A stretch of 64,000 nt of DNA from Candidatus Hydrogenisulfobacillus filiaventi (GTDB lineage: Bacteria > Bacillota > Sulfobacillia > Sulfobacillales > R501), in contig LR778114.1 of the NCBI GenBank assembly GCA_902809825.1, forward strand, positions 2,046,001-2,110,000, read 5' to 3'. The notes below the pieces were generated by a model, which was given only the letters and a program-made list of their open reading frames with translations, did not search any database and was not told the origin of the DNA. The translations under genes and the position numbers were made by a program. Positions 15,013 to 27,736 of the stretch are shown one piece after another (positions within the stretch are counted from its first letter, which is position 1; each line of letters begins with the position of its first letter).

Positions 15013-15675
15013 GTGGCGCGGTTGATTTCCGACGATGTCCGCTCCCAAATTGTGGAGTTCTTTAAGGGCCTGAAGGATCCGGTCACCATCGAGATCTACC
15101 GGGGACCGCAGGCGGAGCTGGCGGACGTGATGGTGCAGCTGGCCCAGGAACTGGCGGAGACCACCGACCGCCTGTCGGTCCGCGAAACCGACCAGGTGCC
15201 GGAATTGGAGCCGTTCCACGCCAAGCCCCTCACGGAAATTACGGGTCCCGTCAGCGTGCTCCTCGACCACCGGCAGCAGCCGACGGGGGTCCGTTACCTC
15301 GGCCTGCCCAGCGGGCACGAGTTCGGAGCCTTTCTCGAGGATATCCGGGACATCTCCAACCATACGGTGGGCCTGAGCCAGGGCGCCAAGGACAAACTGG
15401 CGACCTTGACCCGGCCGGTGCATATCCAGGTGTTTACCACCCCGACCTGACCCTACTGTCCCCGGGCGGTTCGCCTGGCACACCAGATGGCAATGGCCAG
15501 TCCGATGGTGATCGCGGATATGATTGACGCCCAGGAGTTCATGGACCTCTCCAACCAGTACGACGTGTACGGGGTTCCCAAGTCCGTCGTCAATGGGGAG
15601 CTGGACGTCACCGGAGCGGTTCCCGAGAACAACCTGCTGCAGCTCGTCATGCAGGCCGGCGGTCAGGGCGCCTGA
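15013..15675 (+). CDS. PDO/glutaredoxin-like oxidoreductase, in-frame TGA read as selenocysteine (U146-P-Y-C149)
   Basis: GTG 15013 (GAGGGGG upstream) opens a frame interrupted only by TGA at 15448-15450 and closed by TGA at 15673-15675: 220 residues, the normal size for a two-module protein disulfide oxidoreductase (PDO). The first module (1-105) lacks CxxC. The second begins RPVHIQVFTTPT, then TGA, then PYCPRAVRLAHQMA, i.e. the PDO active site CPYCP with TGA for the first Cys. Coding continues with the cis-Pro loop YDVYGVPKSVVNG and a C-terminal helix. A SECIS-like hairpin follows the TGA. TGA is an ordinary stop in many neighbouring genes, so selenocysteine insertion is the simplest reading. 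The alternative is a truncated 145-residue protein. Confidence 0.85.
15448..15482 (+). promoter_or_regulatory. Candidate bacterial SECIS element for the PDO TGA
   Basis: After the TGA, CCGGGC (15462-15467) pairs with GCCTGG (15473-15478) around the loop GGTTC, and TGT (15457-15459) pairs with ACA (15480-15482) below a small internal loop. The loop starts 17 nt after the TGA and its first two bases are G. This agrees with the bacterial SECIS rules known for fdhF-type genes: hairpin just downstream of the codon and a G at the loop start. Confidence 0.65.
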
Positions 15676-15694
15676 CCCCGGTTCCCGATGCCGA

Positions 15695-15723
15695 CCAGGG
15701 GGAATGCTCCCCCTGGTTTTTTT
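15695..15723 (+). terminator. Rho-independent terminator after the seleno-PDO gene
   Basis: A perfect 9-bp stem (CCAGGGGGA at 15695-15703 with TCCCCCTGG at 15708-15716), loop ATGC, then seven T. It begins 19 bp beyond the TGA at 15673. A terminator here, and not after 15450, supports the longer reading frame. Confidence 0.93.
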
Positions 15724-15809
15724 CGCCCGGAGCCGTTCCGCCGTCCGGTATACTGAAGAACGACATTGCCCGCCCCGGCCGGGGGCGGGAGGGAAAGGGG
15801 TGCCCCGGT

Positions 15810-16409
15810 TTGATCCAGCCCATCTGGACGATTCCCGCCTCCAGCGCCTTCCTGCGCCAGCGCACCACCAAGGTGCACAGCATCAACCAGGAGGTGCGCC
15901 AGGTGGCGGCCGACCTGCGCGACACCTGGCCGACAGTCTCCGCCTACGGCATCGCTGCTCCGCAGATCGGATCCCGGCGGCGCATGTTCGCCTACCGGCA
16001 TGCCGACCGGGAGGACGAGCCGCCCATCATCCTGATCAACCCCAAGATCATCCGGGCGCGGGGGGAACTCAAGGACTACGACGGGTGCCTGTCGGTGCCC
16101 GGCATCTACGGGGAGACCCGCCGGGCGGCGGAGATCGAGGTGCTGGCCCTTAACGAGCGTGGCGAACCGGTGCGCCTGACTTTTGAGGGGTTTGACGCCC
16201 GGATCATCCAGCATGAGGTGGACCACCTGGAGGGGGTGCTCTTCATCGACCGCGTCGACGACCTCGACGAGTTCTACACCCTGGAGACGCAGGAAGCGGT
16301 GCCGGAAGGGGAGGAAGGCCGCTACCGGCGGGTCCCCCTCACCCCTGAACAGCGGGAGTTCATCGCCCGCGAACGGCGCCCCCTGCCGGCCTATGCCCTG
16401 ACGTGGTGA
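15810..16409 (+). CDS. def: Peptide deformylase
   Basis: Metal-dependent deformylase (199 residues) removing formyl groups from nascent proteins. All three family motifs are present: motif I YGIAAPQIG, motif II DGCLSVPG (metal-ligand Cys; Asp in place of the usual Glu before GCLS) and motif III IIQHEVDHLEGVLFIDR (HExxH). TTG 15810 is eight bases after GAAAGGGG. The C-terminus is longer than in the shortest enzymes (acidic stretch then PLTPEQREFIARERRP). It lies between two TGA-containing redox genes, with its own terminators on both sides. Confidence 0.95.
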   Translation: MIQPIWTIPASSAFLRQRTTKVHSINQEVRQVAADLRDTWPTVSAYGIAAPQIGSRRRMFAYRHADREDEPPIILINPKIIRARGELKDYDGCLSVPGIYGETRRAAEIEVLALNERGEPVRLTFEGFDARIIQHEVDHLEGVLFIDRVDDLDEFYTLETQEAVPEGEEGRYRRVPLTPEQREFIARERRPLPAYALTW

Positions 16410-16421
16410 GCGGACAGCAAA

Positions 16422-16444
16422 GGGGGCGGGATCTTCCCGCCCCC
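16422..16444. terminator. Bidirectional terminator hairpin between def and the glutaredoxin gene
   Basis: Perfect 10-bp stem GGGGGCGGGA (16422-16431) with TCCCGCCCCC (16435-16444), three-base loop. It sits between two convergent genes; a short T-tract follows only on the minus strand, so it best serves the glutaredoxin gene. Confidence 0.7.
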
Positions 16445-16475
16445 GCCCGTTCCGGGCGTAACGCGACGGCCTGCC

Positions 16476-16712
16476 CTACTCGCGGATGCCCAGGGCCCGC
16501 GCCAGCTTCGGCCGATCGAAGCCCACCACCACACTGCTGTTCACCACGATGACCGGCACGCCGGTCTGGCCGGATTTGCGCTTCACGTCGGCCACTGCTT
16601 CCGGATGCTTGATGAGGTCGATCTCCTTGAAGGGGATCTTCCGCTCCTGCAGGTACCGCTTCGCGCTCCGGCAGTGGGGTCAGCTGGGGGTTGTGTAGAT
16701 GACGACCGCCAC
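16476..16712 (-). CDS. Glutaredoxin/NrdH-like protein, in-frame TGA read as selenocysteine (U11-P-H-C14)
   Basis: GTG at 16712, six bases after AAGGAGGG, begins VAVVIYTTPS, then TGA (16682-16680), then PHCRSAKRYLQERKIPFKEI. Reading through gives a 78-residue glutaredoxin with intact landmarks: the active-site loop TTPS-x-PHC, the cis-Pro segment SGQTGVPVIVVN and the terminal helix FDRPKLARALGI, ending TAG. The TGA replaces the first cysteine of CPHC, as in the PDO gene 1 kb away. A perfect TATAAT promoter and a palindromic operator lie upstream, so the gene is under active control. Stopping at TGA would leave ten residues, so a read-through product is strongly favoured. Confidence 0.87.
16647..16682 (-). 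promoter_or_regulatory. Candidate bacterial SECIS element for the glutaredoxin TGA
   Basis: On the minus strand after the TGA, CTGC (16674-16671) pairs with GCAG (16650-16647), GG with CC, and CGC (16665-16663) with GCG (16659-16657) around the loop GAA. The stem has a mismatch and an internal loop, so it is weaker than the PDO one, but its loop also starts exactly 17 nt after the TGA and begins with G. Confidence 0.45.
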
Positions 16713-23819: not shown

Positions 23820-25538
23820 TCAGAACAGGCGGTAGAGGCGGTTGAAGCGCACCTCGCGCGCCGGGGGCACGCGCGCCTCCACGCCGTCCACCGTCACCCG
23901 GTAGGTTTCGGGGTCGACCGCAATCCGCGGGGTGGCATCGTTCCATACCATGTCCCGCTTACTGAGCGTGCGGGTCCCACCGGCGGCCACCAGCGGCTTG
24001 CGCAGGCCCAGCCGTTCCCCCAGTCCCTCCTCCACCGCCGCCCGGCTGGTAAAGACGAGGCTGGTCCGGGCGGGGACTGCGCCGTAAGTCCCGAACATGG
24101 GGCGATACCAGTTGGGTTCCGGGGTGGGGATGGACGCGCCCGGGTCGCCGGAAAGCGCCCAGGCAATGAAGCCACCCTTAATGATGAGCTTGGGCCGCAC
24201 CGCGAAGAACGGAATCTCCCACACCACCAGGTCGGCCCACCGGCCGGGGGCGATGCTGCCCACCCAGTCGGCAATCCCGAAGGTAATAGCCGGATTGATG
24301 GTGAGCTTGGCCAGATACCGCAGCACCCGCCGGTTATCGGAGCCCGGCCGTTCCTCCGGCAGCGGCCCCCGTTCCCGCTTCATCTTGTCCGCAGTCTGGA
24401 AGAGGCGCTGCCAGTTCTCGCCTACCCGGCCCATGGCCTGGGAATCGCTGGAGTACATCGACAGCACCCCCAGGTCATGCAGGACGTCCTCGGCGGCAAT
24501 GGTTTCCGGCCGGATCCGGCTCTCGGCGAAGGCCAGGTCCTCGGCCAGATGGGGATCCAGGTGATGGCAGACCATGAGCATGTCCAGGTGCTCATCGATG
24601 GTGTTGACCCCATACGGCCGGGTAGGGTTGGTGGAGGCCGGGAGCACATTGGGCTCACCCGCCAGGCGCAGGATATCGGGGGCATGGCCGCCCCCGGCCC
24701 CCTCGGTGTGATAGGTGTGGATCACCCGGCCGTTGATGGCGCGCCGGGTATCCTCCACAAAGCCGGCTTCGTTGAGGGTGTCGGTATGGATGGTCACCTG
24801 CACATCCAGGCGATCCGCCACCGCCAGGCAGCGATCGATCACAGCCGGGGTGGCCCCCCAATCCTCGTGGATCTTGAGGCCCAGGGCCCCCGCCCGGATC
24901 TGCTCCTCCAGCGGCTCTTCCCGGGCGCTGTTGCCCTTACCCAAAAAGCCCACATTGACGGGGAAGGCCTCCGCCGCTTCCAGCATGCGGGCCAGGTTCC
25001 ACGCTCCCGGGGTGCAGGTGGTGGCCAGGGTGCCATGCGCCGGCCCGGTGCCGCCCCCGATCATGGTGGTAATGCCAGCCGACAGGGCAGTCCATACCTG
25101 CGCGGGGTCAATCCAGTGAATATGGGCGTCGATGCCGCCAGGGGTGACAATACAGTGCTCCCCGGCGATGACCTCCGTCCCCGGGCCGATCACCAGCCGG
25201 GGGTCTACCCCGTCCATGACGTCGGGGTTGCCCGCCTTGCCCACTGCCGCAATGCGGCCATCCCGGATGCCGATGTCGGCCTTGACCACCCCCAGCAGGG
25301 GGTCCAGCACCACCGCGTTGGTGATAACCAGGTCCGGCGTCCCCGCCGCGCGGGGCACGGCGGCCTGGCCCATCCCGTCGCGGATGCTCTTGCCCCCGCC
25401 GAAGACGGCCTCGTCCCCGGGGACGGTCAGGTCCCGCTCCACCTCCAGCACCAGGTCGCTGTCGGCCAGCCGGAAGCGGTCGCCGGCGGTGGGCCCATAG
25501 AGGGCTGCATAGCGGCGGCGCTCAAGACGCATGGCCAT
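23820..25538 (-). CDS. ureC: Urease subunit alpha
   Basis: Catalytic subunit (572 residues) hydrolysing urea to ammonia and carbamate at a di-nickel site. Nickel ligands and active-site motifs: [11 protein letters not shown], the carbamylated Lys in [45 protein letters not shown], flap [30 protein letters not shown] and [16 protein letters not shown] with the Ni-ligand Asp. Length and motifs are those of functional bacterial enzymes. It overlaps ureB by 17 bp. Confidence 0.98.
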
Positions 25539-27625: not shown

Positions 27626-27736
27626 CACAACTGCATAAGCGAGCGTCTAGGGTTCCGCCGGCCATGCCGGGTCTGGTCCAAGAGACGCTACCCGCTCACT
27701 GCGGGGAACACGGAGGGAGAAAAGCCCGGGAGGCCA
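27626..27736 (+). promoter_or_regulatory. Guanidine-I (ykkC) riboswitch aptamer
   Basis: The conserved ykkC blocks appear in order: CTAGGGTTCCG (27647-27657), CTGGTCCAAGAGA (27673-27685) and AAAAGCCCGGGAG (27720-27732), separated by small hairpins (CCGGC/GCCGG near 27659-27669; CCCGC/GCGGG near 27690-27704). This class senses guanidinium. It sits between the guanidine hydrolase and the metallophosphoesterase/permease genes, so it gates the latter. Confidence 0.92.

Follow-up and report, generated by a model that had tools for sequence, protein, structure and literature searches.

Probable selenocysteine codons in a PDO-type and a glutaredoxin-like gene of a Sulfobacillales genome, and the hairpins that follow them

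In this study, we consider a 64-kb stretch of DNA (hereafter the window), positions 2046001-2110000 of a complete genome of 2.57 Mb, in which two genes on opposite strands each carry an in-frame TGA codon. The question that this locus raises is whether these codons encode selenocysteine (Sec), and whether the hairpin found after each of them, whose loop an earlier note had placed exactly 17 nt downstream, can be taken as the signal for SelB-dependent recoding. Both TGA codons are where that note located them, at 15448-15450 and 16682-16680. The features concerned are the following:

15013-15675, + strand: predicted selenoprotein gene for a PDO-type (AhpF N-terminal-like) protein disulfide oxidoreductase (PDO), GTG start, motif UPYC, family TIGR02187, TGA read through
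15448-15450, + strand: in-frame TGA of the PDO gene, read as a Sec codon, context TTPT-U-PYC; within the order, 40 distinct homologues have TGA here and 6 have TGC
15462-15467 / 15473-15478 (stem) and 15468-15472 (loop GGTTC), + strand: putative SECIS hairpin of the PDO gene, six pairs conserved with Sec, loop N-G-U-N-C in homologues
15810-16409, + strand: peptide deformylase-like gene that separates the two, from the list of open reading frames, its identity judged by eye from the translation
16476-16712, - strand: predicted Uxx-star glutaredoxin-like selenoprotein gene (Grx), GTG start, motif UPHC, families NF041212 and PF00462
16680-16682, - strand: in-frame TGA of the Grx gene, read as a Sec codon, context TTPS-U-PHC; within the order, 29 distinct homologues have TGA here and 9 have TGC or TGT
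16652-16669, - strand: candidate SECIS hairpin of the Grx gene, with a bulged stem and the loop GAA at 16662-16660, from the minimum-energy fold

The standard code reads both TGAs as stops, and the two genes could then be truncated or pseudogenes. The content of the genome argues against this. It encodes SelA (571 bits), SelB (330 bits, with both winged-helix RNA-binding domains, PF09106 and PF09107), a tRNA-Sec with anticodon UCA and a SelD that carries its own in-frame TGA (...SG-U-GCKLGPGD), which is the full set by which a Sec user is recognized. An FdhA-like gene (genome positions 1783580-1785442) also has an in-frame TGA, within CNRT-U-HAPSV, and Sec has been reported in the formate dehydrogenase (PMC4378227) and in a peroxiredoxin (PMC7409299) of Sulfobacillus. 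The two window genes belong to families that are both listed among selenoprotein families (PMC13188914): the PDO scores 213.4 bits with TIGR02187 (PDO_seleno_TRX; curated cut-off 185), and the Grx 71.8 bits with NF041212 (Uxx-star; curated cut-off 66) as well as matching PF00462, the UxxC motif being present in each. Homologues were gathered from 42 genomes of the same order, whose named members are Sulfobacillus; nearly all of them carry both PDO and Grx, with either TGA or Cys at the Sec codon, and in a search of named genomes Sulfobacillus thermotolerans Kr1 is one of the nearest relatives. In many genera of the order the protein is conserved both before and after the TGA, and the TGA position alternates with Cys only. 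With this exchange seen across 40 (PDO) and 29 (Grx) distinct Sec-type homologues, true stops are in practice refuted, and we regard them as extremely improbable.

Since the Sec machinery is complete, the families are known selenoprotein families and the TGA is kept or replaced by Cys in the relatives, both codons almost certainly encode Sec. Our main reading, to which we give a probability of about 0.88, is that PDO and Grx are selenoproteins in which Sec replaces an active-site Cys through SelB-type recoding of UGA, with a classical hairpin in PDO and a weaker, variable one in Grx. The binding of SelB to these hairpins and the actual insertion of Sec are what we infer from the sequences.

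Several observations on the genome surround this core. In several relatives PDO and Grx are convergent neighbours (for example at G423:C1:980090-980998), whereas in the window the peptide deformylase-like gene separates them. The same genome has a Cys paralogue of the window Grx (CRWC, 2135032-2135265, 63% identical) and a PDO paralogue with an in-frame TGA (SPT-U-QFC, 1221303-1221851, - strand, 26% identical). A second tRNA-Sec-like gene lies on the - strand at 364062-364151 (L008:1497-1590); it is 94 nt long, with anticodon GCA, U73 and a long variable arm, scores 56 bits with the tRNA-Sec model (gathering threshold 47), and coexists with a normal tRNA-Cys(GCA) at 828690. It resembles the selC* tRNA-Cys class, for which an 8/4 form with a bulged A has been described (PMC7609411); here, however, the predicted acceptor/T pairing is 7/6 and the bulged A is not seen. 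Elsewhere in the window, a guanidine-I riboswitch (27636-27734, + strand, 81.6 bits) lies near what look like urease genes, and an Rfam match to 5_ureB_sRNA (25088-25383, + strand) is antisense to an apparent ureC and may merely mirror the conserved urease coding sequence.

The hairpins can be compared with the bacterial consensus (bSECIS), which has a loop of 3-9 nt, an upper stem of 4-16 bp, a G in the first two loop positions, usually as G[G/U], a distance of 16-37 nt from UGA and a minimum free energy of -7.5 kcal/mol or lower (PMC13188914). In PDO, the hairpin drawn in the earlier note is there: the 6-bp stem CCGGGC/GCCUGG closes the loop GGUUC, whose first base lies at +17. The minimum-energy fold of the 40-nt segment, however, adds a G-C pair, which gives 7 bp and a loop GUU starting at +18 (-12.8 kcal/mol). 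Drawn either way, as 6 bp with 5 nt or as 7 bp with 3 nt, the element lies within the consensus, with a G in the first two loop positions and a distance of 17 or 18 nt. Folding does return a hairpin after each TGA, but in neither case does its stability exceed that of dinucleotide shuffles (z -0.62 for PDO, -0.78 for Grx). This score cannot discriminate a SECIS, since the authentic element of E. coli fdhF itself scores z -0.91.

Conservation is much more telling. All six PDO pairs (15-31, 16-30, 17-29, 18-28, 19-27 and 20-26, counted from the U of UGA) are present in 38 of the order's 40 distinct Sec homologues and in none of the 6 Cys homologues, when 6% would be expected from synonymous recoding. 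A second set, taken from named genomes, overlapping the first in organisms and including two Chloroflexota MAGs, has the hairpin in 15/15 Sec and 1/65 Cys homologues. RNAalifold gives -9.9 for PDO against -0.4 for the null. In the loop, which reads N-G-U-N-C, G22 and U23 are constant in 40/40 Sec homologues and N21 varies (A 14, G 14, U 10, C 2).

As the nucleotides are very similar across the order and in the two Chloroflexota MAGs, the hairpin could have been kept by shared ancestry or gene transfer alone, rather than by selection on the RNA. This is very improbable, since the constraint follows the stem: its codons CCC, CGG/CAG, CGC and CTG show almost no variation (synonymous identity 0.90-1.00), whereas the Ala and Val codons of the loop vary freely (0.29 and 0.38; gene mean 0.42). 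Moreover, the hairpin is lost in Cys forms that are nested within the tree, and its rarity among Cys forms in both sets also speaks against this alternative. When the tree is built with the Sec column left out, Sec and the hairpin shift together in 6 of 6 independent contrasts (p 0.031 by sign test). The covariation that the earlier note had proposed to look for is not seen as two-sided changes in the PDO stem, whose pairs are nearly invariant; pair 17-29 is either G-U or A-U. The TGA-bearing paralogue has retained this hairpin at the corresponding position. A covariance model of the PDO element, run against its own genome, finds itself at 65 bits and a PDO paralogue with TGA at E 0.03, along with a slightly better partial match at E 0.024 and weaker matches that look like noise; an Rfam search of the 64-kb window gave no SECIS match. 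Conserved with Sec and not with Cys, the PDO hairpin is, on this comparative evidence, a genuine SECIS.

The case of Grx is less clear. The mismatched stem with a GAA loop at +17 was correctly described: it is the minimum-energy fold (-12.4 kcal/mol), with one mismatch and one bulge, and its distance and energy lie within the consensus. Its upper stem has 3 contiguous pairs before the mismatch and the bulge, and thus reaches 4-16 bp only if these are tolerated. The earlier note had held that a hairpin not conserved in TGA homologues would count against its proposal; the PDO hairpin is conserved, but when the Grx genes are scanned in the manner of bSECIS, the GAA loop at +17 comes out best in only 3 of 29 Sec homologues, and the pairs are partly enriched. 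An alternative stem (14-18/26-30, with a 7-nt loop) is no better supported.

It may therefore be that the PDO hairpin is real while that of Grx is a chance product of GC-rich coding sequence, the Grx SECIS being another element of the same region; we place this a little short of even odds. Besides the rarity of the exact loop, RNAalifold on the Grx homologues finds no consensus structure, the pairing shows no excess over column shuffles, covariation was not found among the homologues, the upper part of the stem is broken in many of them, the tree offers one supported independent Sec/Cys contrast only, and such loops are frequent in random 40-mers. Against it, the six pairs as drawn are all possible in 14/29 Sec and 0/9 Cys forms (9% expected), and the third bases that are frozen in Sec forms (TGC 29/29, CGG 28/29, AAG 27/29) include, for CGG and AAG, members of two pairs of the proposed stem (G15-Y30 and C20-G24). 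The local hairpin energy gives z -1.2 in Sec and 0.06 in Cys forms against a synonymous null. Constraint on the RNA downstream of the Grx UGA thus appears likely. A more speculative proposal, which we find rather unlikely, is that the SECIS of the order's Sec Grx genes departs from the bSECIS consensus (an N-A-A loop without a conserved G or G-U, and frozen UGC-CGG...AAG) and is recognized by the same SelB that would read the G-U loops of PDO and FdhA.

The earlier note had rested its case for recoding on the shared spacing, with a G-first loop exactly 17 nt after both TGAs. Recoding of both genes is well supported by the machinery, the kept TGA, the Cys homologues and the family models, but the spacing argument is weak. 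The first loop base is G21 in 14/40 Sec PDO and 11/29 Sec Grx homologues; the window Grx itself has G first. The loop of SelD (CGGGU) starts at +16, that of the 7-bp FdhA hairpin (GGUCU, read from the fold) at +18, and that of Grx at +17 or +15 depending on the pairs drawn; in E. coli fdhF, to which the earlier note had ascribed the same spacing, it starts at +18. Among random 40-mers of the window, a minimum-energy loop that begins exactly at +17 and with a G occurs in 1.9%, and a SECIS-like loop that begins at +16 or later and has a G among its first two bases in 28.5%. Since Sec genes of the same genome and fdhF range over 16-18 nt, and the value depends on the drawing, the shared 17 nt is mostly a coincidence within ordinary SECIS geometry and not a meaningful signature.

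In the mechanism that we propose, SelB carrying Sec-tRNA(UCA) would decode UGA, guided by the RNA hairpin just downstream. The PDO signal would be the conserved 6-bp stem CC[G/A]GGC/GCCUGG capped by N-G-U-N-C, with its G-U at the classical SECIS position, and in Grx a weaker, variable hairpin near the same position probably serves. The equal spacing would then reflect the general 16-18 nt geometry of SelB and the ribosome in recoding, together with the freedom in drawing loops. The analysis thus supports two predicted selenoproteins that would be overlooked under the standard code. PDO offers an exceptionally clean bacterial SECIS, with a stem that accompanies Sec and disappears where Cys takes its place, and Grx, because its element fits the accepted consensus unclearly, is a compact case for studying the minimal needs of SelB.

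Compared with known systems, we see here two genes of known selenoprotein families with SelB-type recoding of the ordinary kind, one with a very clean SECIS and the other with a candidate element. The window PDO shares family score and UxxC motif with the TIGR02187 selenoproteins, homologs of the AhpF N-terminal domain, and is a new member in the Sulfobacillales lineage with no material difference from them. The window Grx likewise shares family score and a UxxC near the N-terminus with the Uxx-star/glutaredoxin selenoproteins (NF041212, PF00462), but the putative SECIS of its lineage, with a variable first loop base and no constant G or G-U in N-A-A, does not clearly fit fdhF or the bSECIS consensus. 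The PDO stem lacks the bulged U of the classical bacterial SECIS, and its loop begins at 17/18, against 18 in fdhF. It otherwise resembles fdhF and bSECIS, with a hairpin right after UGA, a small G-U loop, a spacing of 16-18 nt and an energy below -7.5 kcal/mol, and E. coli fdhF has, at the place of the loop, the same five bases as the GGUCU of the FdhA-like gene.
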